From assembly GCA_021739765.1 (NCBI GenBank), contig JAIPBD010000015.1, forward strand, positions 1 to 64,000: 64,000 bases of DNA, in the 5' to 3' direction. Of this stretch, positions 19,271 through 30,678 are shown piece by piece; position 1 is the first letter of the stretch, and every line of letters begins with the position of its first letter. Source of the stretch: Melioribacteraceae bacterium. GTDB lineage: Bacteria > Bacteroidota > Ignavibacteria > Ignavibacteriales > Melioribacteraceae. Under the pieces are notes generated by a model. That model had not been told where the DNA came from and ran no database searches. It saw only the letters and a list, made by a program, of their open reading frames with translations. A program made the position numbers and the translations under genes.

Positions 19271-20902
19271 ATGCTCAACAAACACATCAAATTTATAGTT
19301 CTGATTTTATTTCTTGGATCATTTTGGGGATGCGAAAACGAAATTCCAACTGAAAAATTTCTCCGCGTCCAAGATCAAAACTTCGTTGACGGAAACGGAA
19401 AGAAGGTTTTTCTTAAAAGTGTCGGATTGGGAAACTGGCTTCTTCCCGAAGGTTATATGTGGAAGTTCGGGAACCTCGCGGACAGACCTCGAAAAATTGA
19501 GGCGTTAACCGTTGATTTGCTCGGAAAAGAAAACGCGGATCAATTTTGGCAAGACTTCAGAAAATTCTACATCACGGAAGCGGATATTAAAAGAATAGCT
19601 GAATTGGGCTTTAATTGTGTTCGTCCGGCAATGAACTCCCGTCTGTTTTTGACCGAGGGAGAAAATCCACAGTTCATAGAAGAAAACTTCAAATTGTTAG
19701 ATGATTTGATGGAATGGTGCAAAAAATACGATGTTTATGTTGTACTTGATATGCACGGCGCACCCGGAGGACAAACGGGTGAGAATATTGACGACAGCCC
19801 GAATGACGAACCGGAATTGTTTATGTATGAAAAGAATCAAGATTTGCTTGTTGATTTATGGGTGAATTTAGCGGATCGATACAAAGATAATCCGACATTA
19901 ATCGCATACGATTTATTGAACGAACCACTTCCCGCGCGCGACGGATCTGCTGAAAAATACGGGCATCTCGTCGAACCGCTTTATAAACGCATCACGGATG
20001 AAATCCGCAAAGTCGATTCTTTACACATGATTACGCTCGAAGGAGTCGATTGGTCAAATGATTGGTCAATCTTTACCGAAGTTTTCGACGACAACACATT
20101 TTATCAATTCCATTATTACTGCTGGAATCGTCCCGATCATTTGAATTCTGTTCAATATTTTATTGATGAACGTGAGCGGTTAAATACACCGGTTTGGGTT
20201 GGCGAAACCGGGGAAAAAAACAACAAAATTTATTGGGGAACAACTCAATATTTTGAAGCGAACGATATTCATTGGTCGTTTTGGCCCTGGAAAAAAATGG
20301 ATACAAAAAACACACCGTATTCGATTAATCGACCTGATAATTGGGATCTTGTTCTCGATTACTTGAAAGGTGGTGAAAAACCGAGTGTTGCTGAATCCCA
20401 AAAGATTTTTAATGAAGTAATCGAAAATATAAAACTCGAAAATTGTGTCTTTTTTGAAGATGTAACCAATTCGATTTTTCGTCGAGTTCCGGTAACAATT
20501 GAAGCTGAAAATTACGGTCACGATGGATTTGAACGTTCGTATTTTGTTTTCGAAAGAAAAGAGTTTTCGGAATATTATCGAACTTCGGAACCGGTCCAAA
20601 TAAAAATGTTAGAGGATGGCAACGACTCCGAGCAATATGTGGTTTTGGAAAGAGCTGAGTGGACGGCTTACGAAGTGGGAAGCGATTCTTTGTCGAATCG
20701 GAAGGTTACAATAAAAGCCAGAGGCGAAGGCGAAACCCCAAAGCTGAAATTTGATTTTAACGGAAACAAATATGAATTTGACCTGACCGATTCGTGGCAA
20801 GAGTACGAATTAAATGGTGTTGAAATTATGAAGGGAAACAACAAAATTAAAACCGAAGTTTTATTCGGGATTGCAAATCTCGATTGGATAAAAATAGAGT
20901 AA
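19271..20902 (+). CDS. Lipoprotein glycoside hydrolase family 5 (cellulase-like) with C-terminal CBM-like domain
   Basis: A 543-residue protein with a lipoprotein signal (IKFIVLILFLGSFWGC). The GH5 TIM barrel covers about residues 40-365: FNCVRPAMNSR, VVLDMHGAPGGQTG, then the acid/base E218 in LLNEP and the nucleophile E312 in WVGETGE. The C-terminal part from about residue 405 starts VTIEAENYGHDG and resembles CBM6/35-type beta-sandwiches. It would cleave a beta-glucan or beta-mannan at the cell surface or in the periplasm. A 127-residue lipoprotein gene follows 3 bp after the stop and a second GH5 comes shortly after. Confidence 0.88.
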   Translation: MLNKHIKFIVLILFLGSFWGCENEIPTEKFLRVQDQNFVDGNGKKVFLKSVGLGNWLLPEGYMWKFGNLADRPRKIEALTVDLLGKENADQFWQDFRKFYITEADIKRIAELGFNCVRPAMNSRLFLTEGENPQFIEENFKLLDDLMEWCKKYDVYVVLDMHGAPGGQTGENIDDSPNDEPELFMYEKNQDLLVDLWVNLADRYKDNPTLIAYDLLNEPLPARDGSAEKYGHLVEPLYKRITDEIRKVDSLHMITLEGVDWSNDWSIFTEVFDDNTFYQFHYYCWNRPDHLNSVQYFIDERERLNTPVWVGETGEKNNKIYWGTTQYFEANDIHWSFWPWKKMDTKNTPYSINRPDNWDLVLDYLKGGEKPSVAESQKIFNEVIENIKLENCVFFEDVTNSIFRRVPVTIEAENYGHDGFERSYFVFERKEFSEYYRTSEPVQIKMLEDGNDSEQYVVLERAEWTAYEVGSDSLSNRKVTIKARGEGETPKLKFDFNGNKYEFDLTDSWQEYELNGVEIMKGNNKIKTEVLFGIANLDWIKIE

Positions 20903-20905
20903 AAA

Positions 20906-21289
20906 ATGAAAACAATATTTTTGTTTTTGAGCTTGGTTCTTCTTTCAGGATGTGGTGATTCATTAACCGAATTTGAATTGGATGAAGAGTTTAAAATCAA
21001 ATATGGAGAAAAAGTCCGAATAAACGGGGCGCCTTTTGAGATCGAATTTATTGATGTTGCGGAGGATTCCCGTTGTCCGAGAAATTTAGTCTGCGTCTGG
21101 GCAGGCAACGCCGAAATTGTTCTTGCTGTTGCAGATGAACGAAGGTCGCTTAACACAACTCTCGATCCCAAATCCTTTGATCTTTATGGTTATAAAGTTG
21201 ATTTGATTCGTATTGAACCTTATCCCGAGGATGAAAACGAAATACCGAAGGAAATTTACGAAGCGACTCTTTCTGTCGGGAAACTCTGA
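20906..21289 (+). CDS. Small lipoprotein with SRCP/CVWAG motif
   Basis: A 127-residue lipoprotein (signal LFLSLVLLSGC). FEIEFIDVAEDSRCPRNLVCVWAGNAEIVL is a conserved segment seen in many small bacterial proteins of unknown role; its Cys pair may form a disulfide. The start lies 3 bp after the GH5 stop, so it is in one operon with it. It may be an accessory surface protein, but no reaction can be assigned. Confidence 0.75.
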   Translation: MKTIFLFLSLVLLSGCGDSLTEFELDEEFKIKYGEKVRINGAPFEIEFIDVAEDSRCPRNLVCVWAGNAEIVLAVADERRSLNTTLDPKSFDLYGYKVDLIRIEPYPEDENEIPKEIYEATLSVGKL

Positions 21290-21391
21290 TAAATCGGGTG
21301 TGAAGAATTGAATCGTGCAATAAAATAAATAAAGCGCTCAAGATGAGTCTCTTTTGAAAATACCGTTACAATAAATAATATTGGTGGAAAA

Positions 21392-23329
21392 ATGCGAAAA
21401 TTGTTATTGATGTTCTTGGCGATTAACCTCTCTTTGTCCGCGCAGGAATTACCCTTCACAAAAGGATTTAATCTTTCCGGGTGGTTCCAAACTTCCAGCG
21501 CGACACAAATTCAACTTTCCAAATTTTCGAAAGAAAAGTTTGCGAAAATACAAGCAATGGGAATCGACCATTTCCGTCTTCCGATAAACCTTCACGCGAT
21601 GACAGATGGTTCTCCAAATTATAACATCGATCCGTTGTTTTTTAATTTGCTTCACGAAGTAATAAATTGGACGGAAGAGCTTGGACTGCATCTAATTCTC
21701 GATAACCACACTTTCGATCCGGCTGTTTCCACAACCACCGATATAGAAGAACCGCTCGTTAAAGTCTGGAAACAAATGGCTGCCGAATTCAAAAACCGCT
21801 CTAATCTAATTTATTACGAAATATTAAACGAACCGCACGGAATTGGCGACAACGAATGGAATACTATTCAAAAGAATGTGATTGACAGCATTAGAACAAT
21901 TGATGATTTTCACACTATTATTGTCGGTCCGGCGGGATGGAACAGCTACAACAATCTTAAATTTATGCCCGAGTATGCCGACACAAACTTGATTTATACT
22001 TTTCACTTTTACGATCCGTTTTTGTTTACCCATCAAGGCGCGAGTTGGACTGACCCTTCGCTCGTCAATTTATCCGGAGTTCCGTTCCCATACAAAGCGA
22101 GCGAAATGCCTCAAGTTCCTGCCGATTTACAAGGAACCTGGGTTCAGGGGAGTTTGAACAGCAGTTATCAAAATGACGGGACAATTCAAGCTGTGAGAAA
22201 TTTGTTAGATATCGCGGCAAATTTTAAAAACGAAAGAAACGTGCCGATATTTTGCGGTGAATTCGGAGTTTATATTAGAAACGCCGAGAAAGATGACCGA
22301 ACACTTTGGCACAGTATCGTTCGATCGTATCTGGAAAGTTTGGGAATCGGATGGTCTCTTTGGGAGTATGATTCTGGATTCGGTGTTTTTGAAGAAGGTT
22401 CAAACAAAATGATAGATCACGACTTAAATGTGTTTTTAACTAACGCGCTTGGACTAACCGCTCCCCCTCAAAGTGAATTTATTATTAAACCCGATACGGT
22501 TGGATTTCATTTGTACGATGATTTTATTGGCGAGAATGTATTTGAATCAAGTTCTGCGGGGAGTGGAATAATTAACTTTTATTCCGAAGACGCCGGAAGT
22601 GGAATTTATTCAATTCATTGTGCGAATCTTGGTCAATATAATAACGTTGGGTTTGATTTTAGTCCGAATAAGGATTTGTCATATATGGCTGCAAACGGAT
22701 TCAATTTTGAGATGAAAGTAAAGGGTGATTCCCCCGGCGCTTTGTTTGATATTCGTGTTATCGATACAAAAGTTGACGCGGATGATCATCCCTGGAGAAT
22801 GAAAGTTACAATTGATGAAAATATGGTGATTTGGGATGGAAGTTGGCAAACTCTTAGAATTCCGTTAACCACTTTTACAGAAGGCGGATCGTGGGACGAT
22901 GCATGGTTCGAACCAATCGGTGAATTTGATTGGACAGCTGTTGATAGATTTGAAATCGTTGCCGAACATCATTCGTTTGCAGGAAAACAATTTTGGTTTG
23001 ATGATATAAAAATTGTAAATCCTTTTGCTGTCGGAATTGAGGAAAACAAAAATCAGCCCAATTCAATTAAGCTTTATCAAAACTATCCGAATCCTTTTAA
23101 TCCGGCAACAAAAATTCGTTATTCTGTCCCGGAAAACTTCGAGTCTAACATAACTCTAAAGATATATGATGCACTCGGGAACGAAATTAAAACCTTAGTA
23201 AATGAACCTCAATCGAGAGGAGAACACGAAATCATGTTTGACGCGTCAGAATTGACAGCCGGAATTTATTTCTTTAAATTATCCGCAAATAATTTCTACG
23301 AAGTCAGAAAAATGACCTTTTTAAAGTAA
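21392..23329 (+). CDS. T9SS-secreted glycoside hydrolase family 5 with CBM-like middle domain
   Basis: A 645-residue protein with a signal peptide (LLLMFLAINLSLSA-Q). The GH5 barrel spans about 20-350: GFNLSGWFQ, HFRLPINLHAM, LILDNHTFDP, acid/base E147 in EILNEPHG and nucleophile E290 in FCGEFGVY. Residues about 370-550 form a beta-sandwich (LYDDFIGENVF...FWFDDIKIV) similar to CBM11-type or related modules. The end is the type IX sorting domain with YQNYPNPFNPATKIRYSVP. It is thus exported to the cell surface or medium, while the neighbouring GH5 is a lipoprotein. Together they suggest beta-glucan or mannan breakdown. Confidence 0.9.
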   Translation: MRKLLLMFLAINLSLSAQELPFTKGFNLSGWFQTSSATQIQLSKFSKEKFAKIQAMGIDHFRLPINLHAMTDGSPNYNIDPLFFNLLHEVINWTEELGLHLILDNHTFDPAVSTTTDIEEPLVKVWKQMAAEFKNRSNLIYYEILNEPHGIGDNEWNTIQKNVIDSIRTIDDFHTIIVGPAGWNSYNNLKFMPEYADTNLIYTFHFYDPFLFTHQGASWTDPSLVNLSGVPFPYKASEMPQVPADLQGTWVQGSLNSSYQNDGTIQAVRNLLDIAANFKNERNVPIFCGEFGVYIRNAEKDDRTLWHSIVRSYLESLGIGWSLWEYDSGFGVFEEGSNKMIDHDLNVFLTNALGLTAPPQSEFIIKPDTVGFHLYDDFIGENVFESSSAGSGIINFYSEDAGSGIYSIHCANLGQYNNVGFDFSPNKDLSYMAANGFNFEMKVKGDSPGALFDIRVIDTKVDADDHPWRMKVTIDENMVIWDGSWQTLRIPLTTFTEGGSWDDAWFEPIGEFDWTAVDRFEIVAEHHSFAGKQFWFDDIKIVNPFAVGIEENKNQPNSIKLYQNYPNPFNPATKIRYSVPENFESNITLKIYDALGNEIKTLVNEPQSRGEHEIMFDASELTAGIYFFKLSANNFYEVRKMTFLK

Positions 23330-23344
23330 CGGAAGCAGATTTAA

Positions 23345-23773
23345 ATGCGATTTGAATCATCAAAAAGTTCGTTCATTTTGGGCATAATTTATTTCTCATG
23401 TGCCGTAAGTTTGGGCACAATTTATCTTATAATAATAGATGATGTCTCGCTCCTCTTTAAAATCTTTATGATTTCGGTGATGCTTTCAGCTACTGTAGTT
23501 CCGCTTTGGGTGGTTTTTGCGACTTATTATATTATTGATGGGGAAAATCTATTTATAAAATCGGCATTTATGACCTGGAGTATCGAGGTCAAAAATATCG
23601 TAAAAATAAAGAAAACCGGTGACGCTTTATCTGGACCCGCGCTCTCTTTCGATAGAATTGAAGTAACCTACCTGAGTGAAAAAAATAAGAAAAAGAAGGT
23701 TTTAATCTCACCCGAAGATCGTGACAAATTTCTGCACAACATCGAAAAAGCGCAACAAAAATTGGCCGCGTAA
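23345..23773 (+). CDS. Membrane protein with bacterial PH-like domain
   Basis: A 142-residue protein with two N-terminal membrane helices (residues ~10-28 and 36-60: FILGIIYFSCAVSLGTIYLI and IFMISVMLSATVVPLWVVFA). A short bacterial PH-type domain follows (YYIIDGENLFIKSAFMTWSIEVKNIVKIKKT, then ALSFDRIEVTYL). The LSFDRIEV segment is typical of bPH/DUF1200-like proteins. It has no known enzymatic role. It starts 15 bp after the GH5 stop but has no obvious functional link to it. Confidence 0.75.
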   Translation: MRFESSKSSFILGIIYFSCAVSLGTIYLIIIDDVSLLFKIFMISVMLSATVVPLWVVFATYYIIDGENLFIKSAFMTWSIEVKNIVKIKKTGDALSGPALSFDRIEVTYLSEKNKKKKVLISPEDRDKFLHNIEKAQQKLAA

Positions 23774-23830
23774 CTATCAAACGAACTCAGCTGTCAGAAT
23801 AGCGTTTATAATCGAAAGGTGCTTTCTAAA

Positions 23831-23866
23831 ATCATACTATTTCACACGGAAATGGTATGATTACTT
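23831..23866. terminator. 12-bp stem hairpin, possible bidirectional terminator
   Basis: ATCATACTATTT (23831-23842) pairs with AAATGGTATGAT (23850-23861), with one G-T wobble and a 7-base loop. The sequence after it is rich in T (TACTTTTAT). It lies between the end of the PH-domain gene and a degraded minus-strand gene, where a terminator is expected for both. The T-run is imperfect. Confidence 0.45.
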
Positions 23867-24360: not shown

Positions 24361-24849
24361 ATGGAAATTTTAGCGGATAATTTTTCAGCGTCGCAGGTAA
24401 TTCAGTTAATGCTTGCACCTGCAGTGATGATAAGCGCGTGTGGTTTGTTGCTTCTCGGAATCAACAACAAATATTCGCTCGTTGTTAACAGAATAAGATT
24501 GCTAAACGGCGAACGGAGAGAGAAAAAAGCGCTTGTTGCAAAGGATAAAAACACTACAGAAGATAACGTACGGCAAGAGAGTGTGAATATACAAATCGAA
24601 CTTCTATTACATCGAGTTAAACTCGTTCGTAACGCGGTTTTGTCGTATGCAATCGCGGTAGCAATGTTTGTAATTACTTCATTTCTTCTCGGTTTGGCAT
24701 TTTTTAGCGGAAGTAGCGGATTTCACTTAATTATAGTAATAACTTTTCTGATCGGGATGATTTTTGTGCTTTCGGGAGTAATTTTTACGGGATTTGAAAC
24801 CTACGAAGGTTATAAAATAGTAAACTATGAAGTAGCGGTCGACGAATAA
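24361..24849 (+). CDS. DUF2721 family membrane protein
   Basis: A 162-residue protein with a short N-terminal helix (residues 10-32: QVIQLMLAPAVMISACGLLLL), a basic cytoplasmic loop with N-R-I-R-L-L-N-G-E-R-R-E-K-K, and two C-terminal membrane helices (105-125 and 130-150). The start APAVMISACGLLLLGINNKYS...NRIR matches DUF2721. Members are widespread and uncharacterised. It lies 86 bp before the large P-loop gene on the same strand, so it may belong to that unit. Confidence 0.85.
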   Translation: MEILADNFSASQVIQLMLAPAVMISACGLLLLGINNKYSLVVNRIRLLNGERREKKALVAKDKNTTEDNVRQESVNIQIELLLHRVKLVRNAVLSYAIAVAMFVITSFLLGLAFFSGSSGFHLIIVITFLIGMIFVLSGVIFTGFETYEGYKIVNYEVAVDE

Positions 24850-24935
24850 TATTTTTAGTGACAATGTGAAGGATTGTTTATACTTTATTCACGATCAATA
24901 CTTTTGTTTATTTTTTATGTAAAAGGGGAAATTAA

Positions 24936-27900
24936 ATGCCGGAGCATGGCGAAGGTGAAAATCAAGCCCAAGTATTCAACATTAAACCAATACTTGAAGA
25001 TTTAAATAAGTCGTCAAAGCAAATTTTATCCGGTTTTAGCGATGAACTAAAAAAGTTTCATCTCGAAAAACTCAGTTCGATCCCAAGCATCCAACACAAG
25101 GTTTTTGAGCCAGTTCAAAAATTGAACGAAAAGAATTTTGATTCGAAAATCATTTCGCAAAGTGTTTTAAAGTACTGTCGTGATTTGCATATCTGGATCA
25201 AGTCTGTGCAATATGTTGATCAAAAGTTGTTCTCAATTGAAAAGATCAATTCCCTTTCCGAAGAAATCCGAATTACGATTGAATCGCAAAATGAAACGGA
25301 AACCGTTATTCAAAATGATGAATATTGGCGATTGGAAAAAAGCGATTCATTAAGAGTCAGATTTTGGAAAAATAACACAAAAGCAAAGTTATTCTTAAAA
25401 GAATCGTCCCTTTCCGTAAAAAATTACATTCGAAAAAAGAGAAACCGCGAAGAACAATTTTTAACGCCGAATACAAGAGTTTTTAACCTTCGCGAATTCT
25501 TAATCTTCTATTATGATTCAGCATTTCAAAATCTTCTTCTAAAAATTTGGATCGAATATCTGAACGACGCTGTTCAGAAAATTCAAAAACTTCATCTGGC
25601 TATAGAATCGATTATCGACAAACTGCAATTTTTAGATCAGTTTCAAGATGTTTATAAGGAAGAAAATGTTGAGTCGGTACTCTCGATTTGTGCTCAATTA
25701 AAAACTGAATATGACGAGCTTTTTTTAGATCTCGAAAATTTTTCTAGTTTGAAGGAAGTTGTCGCCGCCTCCTTCGAAAATTTCAAAAATGATATAAATC
25801 TTTCTATTAATAAAAAAATTAAGTTCGCAGGAACAAAAATTCTCCCAACTTCAAAGTTTGATTTATTCGCCAAAGAAAAATTAAATGAAAGGCTTAACGA
25901 ACAATTTATCACCGCATCTCAAGTTTGGGGACGTTACTTCAAAGGTGAAATTGATGATTGGAGCAAGGATCTCGAGATTTCGATTCTTCAGGCAAATTGC
26001 GTAAAAAATTACCTGGCGGCAATCGCGAAATTTGAATTTGCGACGAACGAAAAGATCATTCCTTCAGTAAATGAAATCGAAGCGATTATTGTTTCCCGAC
26101 TTAATCTGTTAGAACAAACAAAGCATACAACTCTTACAAAACTTAGATCAGATGTAATAAAGGCAAACAAAGACGTTCTAAATGTTTTAAGAGATGAAAA
26201 AATTCCACTGGCGCATGACACAATTATTAATGTCGATCCGCTTTTAATTCTAAATTCATATCTGATCTCGATCAAAAGGGATATTGATAAACTATCAGAA
26301 ATTTACCGGATATTTAAAGCGAAAAAAGTCAGCAAGGGAATTCCGCAACTCGAGTTCGTTGAAATTCCTTTAAAAGATGTAGTTACCGATGAGTTTTACC
26401 TTGATCTAAGAAAACTTTTCCTGGTGTTTCATGATAATGTGGATGCCAAAATTCAGAAAATTATTCGAACAATCTCTGAAATAGATCAGGTTGTTGAATT
26501 CAACTTCGCGGCGGCACTTGAATTATTGCAAAATAAATCGAATGAAGTTCCCCTGGAGGAGATAAAACAAACTGTTGTTGATGGACTTATTCGCGCAAAG
26601 GGACAGGTAAATACTTTATCAAAATCCCTCGCTGAAATTGAAATATTGGCATCGGAAAAACTGCTCGATTTCACTCTCGATTTTGCTGCACAATTACAAC
26701 GTTTGGGCGATAACGAAAATGTAATCGCTTTACAAGTAAGGTTGGCAAAAACAAAAGCTGAAGAAAGAGTTAAAGAGTATCGCAGAAATTTAATAGCGAA
26801 AGTAAAATCGGCTGTTCCTCTTTTTGTTAACTTCGTTAAAGATTCATATCGAACCGCTGAAGAGAAGTACCTCAAAGTAAAAAGCTTTACCGGAATCGGA
26901 AAAGTTGAATCAGACGAAGCCCAAAAACTTGCTATTTACATCTCGGAAACGAAAGATAAGCTAAACTCGATTCCATTTGTTTACCGCCGACTTTTCAGAT
27001 TTGAACCGCTTGAAGACATCAGATTTTTTATTGGACGACAAAATGAATCTGAATATATCAGAGAAAAATGGGATTTGTGGAAAAAGGGGAAATATGCCGT
27101 AACCGCGCTTATTGGAGACAATGGAACCGGAAGAACTTCGCTCTTGAATTATTGCAAATCTCAAATATTCAGCAGTGAACGAATTATCGAGATAACACTT
27201 GATACGACGGTATCAGATCGGGAGAAACTATTCAAGTCTCTAATTAAACTTCATCCCGATAAAGAAGCGACAACACTTTTAGAATTAGAGGAGTTGATTT
27301 TAAGCAGTGATAAAAAGGTGATCTGTATATTGGAGAATTTTCACAATCTTTTCCTTCGTAATGTAAATGGATTTGAAGCGCTTGAAGAATTCTTGTTGTT
27401 TATAGGCAAAACTCACTTAAAAATTTACTGGTTGGTAACATCCGGTATTTATGGTTGGAACTATCTCGATAGGGTATTAGAAGTTTCGCGATCATTTCAG
27501 TATGTGCTGCATCTCAAAAATTTTGATTCAGAAAACATTAGAAAAATTATTTTAAAACGGCATAAGATGAGCGGTTATACGCTTAAATATAATGAGCCAA
27601 AAAACATTACCGAAAACAGAAAATATAAAAAACTTTCCAACGAAGAAGAAAAGCAGAATTATATAGAAAACTACTTTTTCGAGGAACTCACAGAGAATAG
27701 CTCCGGCAATCTGACTATCGCGATTCTATATTGGTTAAAATCGATAGCGGAAATTAAAAATGAACAGATTACAATTTCCACCGCACCGGTTCCGGATTCT
27801 TCGCTTTTTCAGCACTTCACAAATGAAGAATTATTCACTTTTGCCGCATTTTTACAACATCAAACTTTATCTCCCGAAGAGTTATCGTTCATTTTTAATA

Positions 27901-28043
27901 CTTCAATTGAGAAGAGCCGCTTAATATTAAACAGGCTGACGAATCGTGGTTTATTAATTGAAATGAAACGCGGATACCAAATCCACTACGTTATTTATCT
28001 TCAATTGATAAAATCGTTAAAGTTAAAAAACATTTTAAATTAG
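24936..28043 (+). CDS. Large helical protein with atypical P-loop domain and C-terminal winged helix
   Basis: A 1035-residue protein that I do not recognise. Residues 1-680 are almost wholly helical and charged, with probable coiled coils and no membrane segment. A P-loop-type domain follows: GDNGTGRTS at 727-735, where the Walker A Lys is replaced by Arg, and the Walker B-like strand VICILEN at 795-801, in which the usual D-E is E-N. WLVTSGIYGWNYL (sensor-like) and LHLKNFDSENIRKII resemble the STAND/ORC-like AAA clan. The last ~90 residues (FTNEELFTFAAFLQH...LSPEELSFIF...RLTNRGLLIEMKRGYQIHY) form a winged-helix pattern. It may bind but hydrolyse nucleotide poorly. It precedes an MscS channel gene by 9 bp, so the two are likely co-expressed. 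Confidence 0.75.
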   Translation: MPEHGEGENQAQVFNIKPILEDLNKSSKQILSGFSDELKKFHLEKLSSIPSIQHKVFEPVQKLNEKNFDSKIISQSVLKYCRDLHIWIKSVQYVDQKLFSIEKINSLSEEIRITIESQNETETVIQNDEYWRLEKSDSLRVRFWKNNTKAKLFLKESSLSVKNYIRKKRNREEQFLTPNTRVFNLREFLIFYYDSAFQNLLLKIWIEYLNDAVQKIQKLHLAIESIIDKLQFLDQFQDVYKEENVESVLSICAQLKTEYDELFLDLENFSSLKEVVAASFENFKNDINLSINKKIKFAGTKILPTSKFDLFAKEKLNERLNEQFITASQVWGRYFKGEIDDWSKDLEISILQANCVKNYLAAIAKFEFATNEKIIPSVNEIEAIIVSRLNLLEQTKHTTLTKLRSDVIKANKDVLNVLRDEKIPLAHDTIINVDPLLILNSYLISIKRDIDKLSEIYRIFKAKKVSKGIPQLEFVEIPLKDVVTDEFYLDLRKLFLVFHDNVDAKIQKIIRTISEIDQVVEFNFAAALELLQNKSNEVPLEEIKQTVVDGLIRAKGQVNTLSKSLAEIEILASEKLLDFTLDFAAQLQRLGDNENVIALQVRLAKTKAEERVKEYRRNLIAKVKSAVPLFVNFVKDSYRTAEEKYLKVKSFTGIGKVESDEAQKLAIYISETKDKLNSIPFVYRRLFRFEPLEDIRFFIGRQNESEYIREKWDLWKKGKYAVTALIGDNGTGRTSLLNYCKSQIFSSERIIEITLDTTVSDREKLFKSLIKLHPDKEATTLLELEELILSSDKKVICILENFHNLFLRNVNGFEALEEFLLFIGKTHLKIYWLVTSGIYGWNYLDRVLEVSRSFQYVLHLKNFDSENIRKIILKRHKMSGYTLKYNEPKNITENRKYKKLSNEEEKQNYIENYFFEELTENSSGNLTIAILYWLKSIAEIKNEQITISTAPVPDSSLFQHFTNEELFTFAAFLQHQTLSPEELSFIFNTSIEKSRLILNRLTNRGLLIEMKRGYQIHYVIYLQLIKSLKLKNILN

Positions 28044-28052
28044 AGTATTTCA

Positions 28053-29033
28053 ATGAAAAAAGGATTTCTGATAACTACACTTTTGCTCTTCATTTTTAGT
28101 GTGAATTCCGCGCAAATGATTCCCGAAATAACACAGAAAGATTCAACCCGAATAGAATCTGCCAAAACCGATTCAACGAGCGGTTCAATTTTATCCACAG
28201 AAACAATCGGCAAAGAATTAGCGCAAGAACAGCCCGAATGGAGCGTCGGGTTCGCCAAAATATTCTGGTCTTTGGTCGTTTTTATAATTGGAATGATTGT
28301 AATAAAGTACTCCTCCCTTTTAATTGAAAGCATAAGCGAAAAGTGGATTCGTTTTCGTTTAACGATAAAAGGATTTATCCCGATTTTCAGAATCCTTAGC
28401 TGGACTTTAGTCGGATACATTATAATCGGCGATATTCTCGCTCCACCGATCGCAACAGTGGTTGCTATTACCGCATCCGCCGGAATCGCGGTAGGGTTTG
28501 CCTCTCAGGATATTCTTAAAAACATCTTTGGCGGAATTATGATTTTATTCGATAGACCATTTCAAGTCGGCGATAAAATCGAAATTGGAAATTATTACGG
28601 AGAAGTTGTAAGCATCGGACTTAGAACTGTTCGAATTGTAACCCCGGATGATTCACTTGTCGCTATTCCCAATAGTGAAATCGTCAATCAATCCGTCTCT
28701 AATTCAAACGCCGGTGAATCCAATTGTCAGGTCGTTTCCGAATTTTACCTTCCCGCTCATATAAATATAAACGAGGCAAAAAAACTCGCTTATCGAGCGG
28801 CGGCGGTTTCACGTTATGTTTATCTCGAAAAACCTATTGTGGTAATTATCAAAAACGAAATTCACCAGGGAAGGTCACTTCTAAAAATGAGATTAAAAGC
28901 ATACGTTTCGGATATCCGTTTCGAATTCGCGTTCGCGAGTGAAATGACGGAAACAGTTATCAAGGAATTTTTGCATCACAACATCGTAACAGCCCGCGAA
29001 CTTTCACTATTGGATAAAGAACAAGTTTTGTAG
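28053..29033 (+). CDS. MscS-type mechanosensitive ion channel
   Basis: A 326-residue protein. It has an N-terminal signal-like segment (LITTLLLFIFSVNSAQM), then membrane helices at about 70-92, 105-130 and 135-160. The pore helix contains ASAGIAVGFASQDILKNIFGGIMILFDRPFQVGDKIEIG, the MscS TM3/beta-domain hallmark, and SLRTVRI-like VSIGLRTVRIV follows. IPNSEIVNQSVSN is the family's next motif. MscS channels open under membrane tension and release osmolytes. The gene begins 9 bp after the large P-loop gene, which is an unusual partner. Confidence 0.93.
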   Translation: MKKGFLITTLLLFIFSVNSAQMIPEITQKDSTRIESAKTDSTSGSILSTETIGKELAQEQPEWSVGFAKIFWSLVVFIIGMIVIKYSSLLIESISEKWIRFRLTIKGFIPIFRILSWTLVGYIIIGDILAPPIATVVAITASAGIAVGFASQDILKNIFGGIMILFDRPFQVGDKIEIGNYYGEVVSIGLRTVRIVTPDDSLVAIPNSEIVNQSVSNSNAGESNCQVVSEFYLPAHININEAKKLAYRAAAVSRYVYLEKPIVVIIKNEIHQGRSLLKMRLKAYVSDIRFEFAFASEMTETVIKEFLHHNIVTARELSLLDKEQVL

Positions 29034-29217: not shown

Positions 29218-30678
29218 ATGAAAAAGAGTATCAAATATTTATTGATGGTTTTGGTAATTGCCGGTTGTGCACAACAAGAAAAACAACAACCCGCAAAAGA
29301 AGTTTTTTCAGTTGAAGGAAAAGAAGTTGTGGTTTATACAACTGCTAAGGATACTGAACTTCGATTATCGGAAACAGGAAAAAGCTCCTTTGAACCGGCG
29401 GATCAACCGCTCGAATCAGAAGTCTCCGTATTTGTAAATCCCAATAAAACCTTCCAAACCTTTTGGGGAATCGGCGGGGCAATTACCGACGCTTCGGCAG
29501 AAGTTTTCGCGAAGCTATCCAAAGAAAACCAAGACGAATTTTTGAAAGCATATTATGATAAAAATGAAGGGATCGGTTATACTTTGGCAAGAACTCCGAT
29601 TCACAGTTGTGATTTCAGCAGCGCAAGTTTCACTTACATCGAAGAAGGTGATGACGAACTAAAAACCTTCAACATCGATCACGACAAACAATATCGAATT
29701 CCATTGATCAAAAAAGCAATCGAGGCTGCCGGTGGCGAACTTCCGCTTTATGCGAGTCCTTGGAGCCCTCCCGCTTTTATGAAAACTAACAACAACATGC
29801 TTCGCGGCGGAAAATTACTTCCGGAGTATGCGGAAACATGGGCGCTTTATTACACAAAATTTATTAAAGCATATGAAAAAGAAGGAATGCCGATTTGGGG
29901 AATTACAATTCAAAATGAACCGATGGCAACCCAACGCTGGGAGTCTTGCATTTATACTGCGGTTGAAGAACGCGATTTCTTGAAAAATCATCTCGGACCC
30001 GTGATGGAAAGAGAAGGGCTCGGCGATAAAAATATTGTGGTTTGGGATCATAACAGAGATTTAATAACAAATCGCGCGAATACAATATTTGATGACCCCG
30101 AAGCTTCAAAATATGCTTGGGGAATTGGATTTCATTGGTATGAAGTTTGGGCCGGCGGAGAATATATGTATGAAAATCTCGCGCGAATCAAAGAATCATA
30201 CCCTGATAAAAAATTACTTTTTACCGAAGGTTGTGTTGAAAGCTTCGATCCGGCGAAATATCAACACTGGCCGAATGGCGAACGCTACGGTCAATCGATG
30301 ATTAATGATTTTAACCAAGGAACTGTCGGTTGGACTGATTGGAATATTTTGTTGGATGAAACGGGCGGACCGAATCATGTTCAAAATTTGTGTTTTGCTC
30401 CGATTCACGCGGATACGAGAACTGGTGAATTAATTTACACTCCATCCTATTATTACATCGGCCATTTTTCGAAATTTATTCGTCCTGATGCAAAAAGAGT
30501 AAGCACGGTAAGCAGCAGAAGTCATTTGTTAACAACATCTTTTATAAACACAGATGGAAAAATGGTTACGGTTGTGATGAATCAGAGTGAATTAGAAATC
30601 GAATACAAACTATACATTGGCCAAAATGCGGTAAAAGAAACAATTTTACCCCACGCGATTCAAACCATAGTCTATTAA
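29218..30678 (+). CDS. Lipoprotein glycoside hydrolase family 30 (glucosylceramidase-like)
   Basis: A 486-residue protein with lipoprotein signal (KYLLMVLVIAGC). The GH30 barrel starts QTFWGIGGAITDASAEVF and continues ARTPIHSCDFS, YASPWSPPAFMKTN, the acid/base E234 in IQNEPMATQRW and the nucleophile E337 in LFTEGCVES. A short beta-sandwich closes the protein (SSRSHLLTTSFINTDGKMVTVVMN). Bacterial members of this subgroup cleave beta-1,6-glucan, beta-glucosides or beta-xylosides; the substrate here is not determined. It is a surface or periplasmic enzyme, probably part of the same polysaccharide theme as the two GH5 genes. Confidence 0.9.
   Translation: MKKSIKYLLMVLVIAGCAQQEKQQPAKEVFSVEGKEVVVYTTAKDTELRLSETGKSSFEPADQPLESEVSVFVNPNKTFQTFWGIGGAITDASAEVFAKLSKENQDEFLKAYYDKNEGIGYTLARTPIHSCDFSSASFTYIEEGDDELKTFNIDHDKQYRIPLIKKAIEAAGGELPLYASPWSPPAFMKTNNNMLRGGKLLPEYAETWALYYTKFIKAYEKEGMPIWGITIQNEPMATQRWESCIYTAVEERDFLKNHLGPVMEREGLGDKNIVVWDHNRDLITNRANTIFDDPEASKYAWGIGFHWYEVWAGGEYMYENLARIKESYPDKKLLFTEGCVESFDPAKYQHWPNGERYGQSMINDFNQGTVGWTDWNILLDETGGPNHVQNLCFAPIHADTRTGELIYTPSYYYIGHFSKFIRPDAKRVSTVSSRSHLLTTSFINTDGKMVTVVMNQSELEIEYKLYIGQNAVKETILPHAIQTIVY

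Follow-up and report, generated by a model that had tools for sequence, protein, structure and literature searches.

A soluble P-loop protein co-encoded with a dedicated MscS-family channel: a candidate cytosolic regulatory subunit, fused to ion transporters in its relatives

MscS channels are generally regarded as self-contained valves that open under membrane tension. Why does the gene of a large soluble P-loop protein stand directly before an MscS gene in a Melioribacteraceae genome? The analyzed stretch (the window) comprises 64,000 nucleotides, positions 1 to 64,000 of contig JAIPBD010000015.1 (assembly GCA_021739765.1), and the two genes encode proteins of 1035 aa and 326 aa. An earlier note on this DNA, made from the letters alone, described an NTPase-like switch linked to the channel and following a DUF2721 membrane protein gene, and suggested that the switch could gate membrane permeability in response to nucleotide or phage signals. 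The positions of the open reading frames (ORFs) given there were confirmed, as were the gaps of 86 bp between the DUF2721 gene and the 1035-aa ORF and of 9 bp between this ORF and the MscS gene. The reading that we favor, and consider rather probable, is that the 1035-aa protein is a cytosolic regulatory subunit of a dedicated MscS subfamily and also of fused ion transporters.

Relatives were collected with a profile of the head of the protein, i.e., its P-loop domain and winged helix, in three overlapping searches covering 165 genomes of the window's order, 295 of its class, and 395 of its phylum. In the order sample, 47 of the 165 genomes matched at E ≤ 1e-3; 34 places had values below 1e-40, and the remaining 20 were weak (E 3e-6 or worse). 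At 1e-15, matches were found in 23 of 295 class genomes and 72 of 395 phylum genomes. With the 20 weak order places excluded, 108 distinct places were listed (34, plus 12 and 62 new ones), of which 78 were read (34, 9, and 35 from the three samples), the window included. An initial pattern scan of named genomes yielded no relatives. A tblastn search of plasmids with the window protein, a single divergent query of limited reach, gave matches outside the phylum that were confined to three alphaproteobacterial records, namely, Novosphingobium sp. PP1Y, N. pentaromativorans US6-1, and Caulobacter sp. NIBR2454; the proteins of the latter two are annotated just as AAA family ATPase or ATP-binding protein. 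On the Caulobacter plasmid (L110, 4789–9211), the pair and a second MscS gene lie a few genes before a TrbC/VirB3/TrbE conjugation set.

A same-strand MscS-family gene directly adjoins the head gene at all 78 loci read. It lies downstream at 66 of them and upstream at 12 (group D, L074–L085), so that the pairing survives a swap of gene order. Adjacent MscS genes were also present at 12 of 12 named Balneolaceae/Rhodothermia loci, six of which repeat loci of the 78 (among the named ones are Fodinibius halophilus, Aliifodinibius salipaludis, Gracilimonas mengyeensis, and one metagenome-assembled genome of Balneola), and in all three plasmid records, where MscS comes immediately after. Over these 93 loci (78, 12 named, and 3 plasmid, with the 6 repeats), the gap within the pair ranges from -59 to +59 bp and is mostly between -16 and +13 bp, seven longer overlaps between unfiltered reading frames having been set to 0. 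At L076, L080, and L082, the MscS gene was recognized in unfiltered ORFs, since longer spurious ORFs otherwise hide it. The earlier note had allowed that the pair might be only local if orthologues normally lay away from MscS; none of the 78 did, and the pair proved to be a widely conserved unit.

Five MscS places were found in the window genome and 3 to 13 in each of thirteen genomes checked. The probability that any one gene of the window genome has a same-strand MscS neighbor by coincidence is therefore about 0.1%, a rough value that assumes one gene per 1150 bp. The DUF2721 gene, which the earlier note had placed in the unit, fared differently. It stands beside only one of the 78 loci, the window itself (search with a one-sequence model), and DUF2721 also occurs in genomes G057 and G076, both without a match to the 1035-aa protein; it was dropped as a part of the unit.

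The 326-aa protein is, by its sequence features, clearly an MscS-family member. Its PF00924 beta-domain scores 83.1 bits against a cut-off of 20.2, its best PDB matches are MscM, YnaI, and MscS (about 1e-14 to 1e-13), and it has a Gly/Ala-rich pore helix in transmembrane segment 3 (TM3; window row GIAVGFASQDILKNIFGG). MscS genes of the window type (E 1e-25) occur in 15 of the 165 order genomes, at one place each, and that place adjoins the gene of the soluble protein. These are exactly the 15 genomes in which the soluble protein was found (two of them cut by contig ends); the Fisher value of this co-occurrence is 1e-21, which ignores the relatedness of the genomes. A chance or merely local gene pair, in favor of which there is nothing beyond the local DUF2721 gene, was ruled out by the presence of both genes in the same 15 of 165 genomes together with the 78/78 adjacency, and its probability is negligible.

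In a phylogenetic tree of 120 MscS sequences, a branch with support of 99/95 separates the 86 linked sequences from 34 others (24 unlinked and 10 further nearby paralogues). As the tree is unrooted and any root arbitrary, the linked sequences may not make up a single clade. Seven duplicate or near-duplicate loci were left out (L096, L098, L102, L105, L106, L107, and L111), at most two MscS were taken per locus, and the 24 unlinked sequences were hand-picked from nine genomes. The soluble-type linked MscS carry the residues QD in TM3 (GFAxQDxLKN) in 54 of 56 cases (43/44 of those labelled linkA and 11/12 of linkD), compared with 1 of the 24 unlinked; the exceptions are the truncated locus L044 and one QE. 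L044 was labelled linkA in the tree and the signature counts; its MscS groups with the partners of antiporter fusions, and TrkH/TrkA are present there. At L019 (1779–5917) and L023 (8767–11877), the pair is followed in the same direction by a gene of a CorA-type Mg2+ transporter and further MscS genes, the first of which groups with the unlinked paralogues in the tree.

The gene company of the pair, and what its relatives are fused to, bear on its function. Seventeen loci encode a head protein of about 1500 aa with an antiporter domain at its start; a Pfam check of one such fusion gave PF00999 with E 1e-18. A second antiporter-like gene precedes the fusion in 16 of the 17, and the remaining contig ends there; of two such preceding genes scanned with Pfam, one contains PF00999 and the other gave nothing. 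TrkH and TrkA follow MscS at 13 of these 17 loci, and the distant locus L073 has TrkA, TrkH, a head protein with transmembrane (TM) segments, and MscS in a different order. An SLC12-type fusion was found at 10 loci (protein of about 1390–1790 aa); Pfam indicated AA_permease (PF00324) in both of two such proteins and, in one, SLC12 additionally, and a short MscS-like gene (242–267 aa) comes after the fusion gene. The antiporter and SLC12 labels were assigned with small profiles built for this analysis, apart from the cases for which Pfam is named; the SLC12 part of L051 is spread across two frames, and the contig end truncates L046. Within the window's family, four of nine soluble loci have CorA after MscS (confirmed with Pfam for one of them). 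In the 1035-aa protein of the window, Pfam detects no transporter domain; an N-terminal transporter domain is present only in relatives.

The long helical arm was compared between the groups as profiles. The arm of the window group matched that of the Balneolaceae group with a probability of 99.8% (E 3e-29) and that of the antiporter-fused group with 98.0% (E 3e-13); the values were 96.3% (E 2e-9) for Balneolaceae versus antiporter-fused and 97.8% (E 8e-13) for antiporter-fused versus SLC12-fused arms. One unrelated profile used as a control gave 0.1%, and helical profiles can inflate such scores. By these comparisons, the arm is homologous across the soluble, antiporter-fused, and SLC12-fused types, and since it is common to all of them, the window protein appears to correspond to the soluble portion of the transporter fusions. 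Head-only proteins of about 380–470 aa, in which the arm is gone, occur in the Balneolaceae genus groups g196 and g202. All four such loci read (L064, L067, L069, and L070, with proteins of about 380–430 aa; an upstream decayed arm was not looked for) have the head directly before MscS, which suggests that the head and MscS form the minimal unit.

Taken as gene company, the Na+/H+-type antiporters, TrkH/TrkA, CorA, and SLC12-type transporters point to osmotic and cation homeostasis, and the fusions to antiporters and cotransporters speak for such a role rather than for one in phage response. A winged-helix transcription regulator of osmotic genes would agree with an Orc/Cdc6-type head that has a winged helix; this head, however, stands behind a transporter domain in 27 loci (two reading frames shortened), and winged helices are also structural elements in STAND proteins, which makes such a regulator very improbable.

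The 1035-aa protein itself belongs to no family above the Pfam cut-offs and has no NCBIfam or PADLOC match. As the earlier note had proposed, it appears soluble, with no TM-like segment in a Kyte-Doolittle scan. Its Pfam scores remain below threshold (AAA_22, 18.9 of 27 bits; nSTAND1, 15.6 of 27.1; AAA_16, 13.3 of 32.6), so the STAND cut-offs (nSTAND/AAA_16/AAA_22) are reached not by the window protein but by the plasmid relative L110, which passes AAA_16 and AAA_22. A PDB search with the whole sequence gave a single match (E 0.92), and one with the head profile gave mostly generic P-loop matches, the best being an ABC-F protein at 1e-6. The Walker motifs and winged helix read in the sequence by the earlier note were confirmed (Table 1), the winged helix being seen in the AlphaFold2 model and the fold matches. 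The model has an AAA+ core fold and, in its elements 690–1030, the order of nucleotide-binding domain, lid, and winged helix; Orc/Cdc6 proteins have the same order, so that it does not decide membership among STAND proteins. At the place of the Walker A Lys there is Arg, and the Walker B strand ends in EN rather than following hhhhDE; in relatives, the Walker B-like strand ends in EN, ED, ES, EG, DN, ND, and others. The arm was modeled with a predicted local distance difference test score (pLDDT) mostly below 65 before residue 350 and of about 75–85 at residues 350–600; that of the orthologue L096 was modeled better (mostly 80–95 up to residue 530). The fold of the arm is not called new, because matches to the head filled the fold searches and the arm was barely probed.

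Fold searches showed a likeness of the head to the DNA-binding AAA+ proteins Orc/Cdc6 and TnsC. The Foldseek matches include NLR and CED-4 chains, BrxC chains appeared in a further fold search, and there are weak sub-threshold matches to the nSTAND and BrxC families. These matches would suit an abortive infection unit in which a STAND-like sensor triggers an MscS-type pore effector, and so would the patchy presence of the protein and its copies on three plasmids, one of them near conjugation genes. Against this stand several observations. With a limit of E 1, none of the three window proteins had a PADLOC match. Of four other homologues, only L035 matched, twice and weakly: CARF-HEPN in the arm (1e-4) and CARF-AAA-HTH in the head (0.04). 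No match was found by tblastn of the window protein, again as one divergent query of limited reach, against 50,697 phage records. The Balneolaceae-type loci keep similar-sized neighbors (an amidase and an M49 peptidase in the one scanned), the antiporter and SLC12-type fusions lie in many cases in TrkH/TrkA operons, and most members of two groups lack the Walker Lys. Thus, a defence role has no positive support beyond the weak STAND, BrxC, and CARF-type resemblance and the carriage on three plasmid records, and we regard it as improbable. Of the earlier proposal, the P-loop switch tied to the channel has become the leading reading, and its phage-signal part is without positive evidence in PADLOC or the phage records.

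The earlier note had asked whether the Arg in Walker A is conserved. On the residue counts across the 78 loci this idea was dropped: in the window's group, Lys is present in 1 of 16, and the others have Ala, Thr, Ile, Asn, Ser, Val, or Arg. In group D, none of the 12 has Lys (8 have Arg). The residue is Lys in 19 of 21 Balneolaceae-side proteins (the other two have Arg), in 17 of 17 antiporter-fused and 10 of 10 SLC12-fused ones, and in the truncated L044 and the TM-fused L073. The Walker Lys is thus largely lost in two groups and mostly kept in three. The head in the window's lineage is, judging from these residues, probably a pseudo-ATPase. The channel partner drifts as well. The mean number of Gly and Ala in TM3 is 8.2 in linkA, 11.3 in the other soluble type, and 8.9 in the unlinked paralogues, compared with 4.5 in the partners of antiporter fusions and 5.7 in those of SLC12 fusions (the ranges overlap). 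Although the fused-type MscS-like partners (e.g., L027 6274–7308 and L034 6255–6986) have given up much of the Gly/Ala pore pattern, their linkage persists at all loci read, and they may act as docking rings or as sensors that do not conduct. Considered by group, decay has affected the ATP site or the pore signature, but not both. Since the lost part differs from group to group, comparing them amounts to a natural experiment on which component is the functional one.

The AAA+ fold, the long helical arm, and the closely spaced or overlapping genes would also be expected of an AAA+-type chaperone or tether that assembles, inserts, or localizes the MscS-like protein and the transporters without gating them. 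Covalent fusion to transporters and loss of the Walker Lys would be less expected of a chaperone that cycles than of a regulatory subunit that stays in place; an assembly factor of this kind is unlikely, if somewhat less so than the defence role.

According to the favored reading, in which the 1035-aa protein and its relatives are regulatory subunits, we infer physical docking, direct gating, the ions moved, and the ligand as follows. The P-loop/winged-helix head and the helical arm would most likely dock on the cytoplasmic face of the MscS assembly. In the soluble types, MscS would be the effector and the partner protein would set its opening, i.e., when ions leave. In the fused types, the head and arm would control the antiporter or SLC12-type cotransporter, which would then be the effector, with the MscS-like protein as partner, sensor, or docking ring. 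The module may serve osmotic and cation (K+, Na+, and Mg2+) homeostasis. As hydrolysis is unlikely in the window's lineage, the head there may act by nucleotide binding or purely as a scaffold.

Some observations weigh against this reading. The fold of the head is common among DNA-binding proteins (Orc/Cdc6, TnsC), so that a function at DNA is conceivable. The presence of the protein is patchy: in the Balneolaceae-type family (f43) it is common yet often absent (47 of 92 genomes), and in the class it is limited to the 23 of 295 genomes given above. Of the 108 listed places, 30 were unread, and sampling beyond one phylum is thin, the plasmid records alone covering it. Since the pore signature is much reduced in the fused types, open-channel gating would not be the whole story there. 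More tentatively still, the unit might represent an undescribed class of AAA+/STAND-like gates: a modular cytosolic switch would place an MscS-type tension valve under control from inside the cell and, where fused to them, would do the same for antiporters and cation-chloride-type cotransporters. The MscS-like protein of the fused forms would then no longer be a pore but a sensor or docking ring.

Each part of the unit is of a familiar kind, and the complete unit corresponds to none of the known systems that could be tested. The channel partner resembles the MscS family (YnaI, MscM, and MscS) in its PF00924 beta-domain above the cut-off and differs from other MscS in forming a linked lineage with QD in TM3 that is co-encoded with a P-loop protein at every locus read. 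Compared with the Orc1/Cdc6-type AAA+ and STAND NTPases, Walker A is degenerate in two groups, the window protein stays below the Pfam cut-offs, and the partners are a channel and transporters. In bCNG channels, MscS relatives with a cyclic-nucleotide domain, and in RCK/TrkA K+ systems, a cytosolic module controls ion flow. This is an analogy: here the AAA+/STAND-like subunit is separate, and there is no cyclic-nucleotide-binding or RCK domain. The KATP channel, in which the nucleotide-binding regulator SUR is paired with a Kir channel, is likewise only an analogy and implies no homology; in the present pair, an MscS-like channel is combined with a soluble, AAA+-like regulator. No description of such a pair was found in searches of an open-access library, and other papers could describe it. 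If the favored reading is true, some MscS channels would belong to a regulated complex with a dedicated old partner, and a partner that also reaches antiporters and SLC12-type cotransporters would make a single module out of tension sensing and the transport of ions. Because named isolates carry the pair (Fodinibius halophilus 2W32, Gracilimonas mengyeensis DSM 21985, and Novosphingobium pentaromativorans US6-1), gating by the partner is directly testable.

Table 1. Genes and predicted protein parts of the pair and its upstream neighbor in the window.
Feature	Position	Strand	Remarks
DUF2721 membrane protein gene	24361..24849	+	162 aa; PF11026, E 4e-24; neighbor only, no conserved part
ORF of the 1035-aa putative regulatory protein	24936..28043	+	helical arm, AAA+/STAND-like P-loop domain, and winged helix; ORF, model, fold search, homologues
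Helical arm, ~residues 17–651	24984..26888	+	common to antiporter-fused and SLC12-fused relatives; model, profile comparisons
P-loop (AAA+/STAND-like) domain, ~residues 690–953	27003..27794	+	
Degenerate Walker A GDNGTGRT, Arg replacing Lys	27114..27137	+	begins at residue 727
Walker B-like strand VICILEN	27318..27338	+	ends at ~residue 801
C-terminal winged helix, ~residues 963–1030	27822..28025	+	model secondary structure; weak profile matches to HTH proteins
Dedicated MscS-family channel gene	28053..29033	+	326 aa; PF00924, E 1.5e-23; TM3 signature GFASQDILKNIFGG; PDB matches, tree, co-occurrence

In a promoter and terminator scan, promoter-like matches were at chance level (17 versus 18.2 in shuffled sequences). 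Terminator-like matches numbered 7 versus 4.4 expected (sd 2.3), with none on the + strand within the unit. An intergenic hairpin of 14 pairs, terminator-like on the + strand, lies 5' of the DUF2721 gene (23830–23862). The gene at 23345–23773, two genes upstream of the 1035-aa ORF, encodes a small protein in which a bacterial PH domain was recognized (bPH_4, E 2e-20). The genes on either side of the unit (19271–23329 and 29218–30678) resemble, judged from their sequence, those of secreted glycoside hydrolases, and one of these proteins presumably ends in a type IX sorting-like tail.

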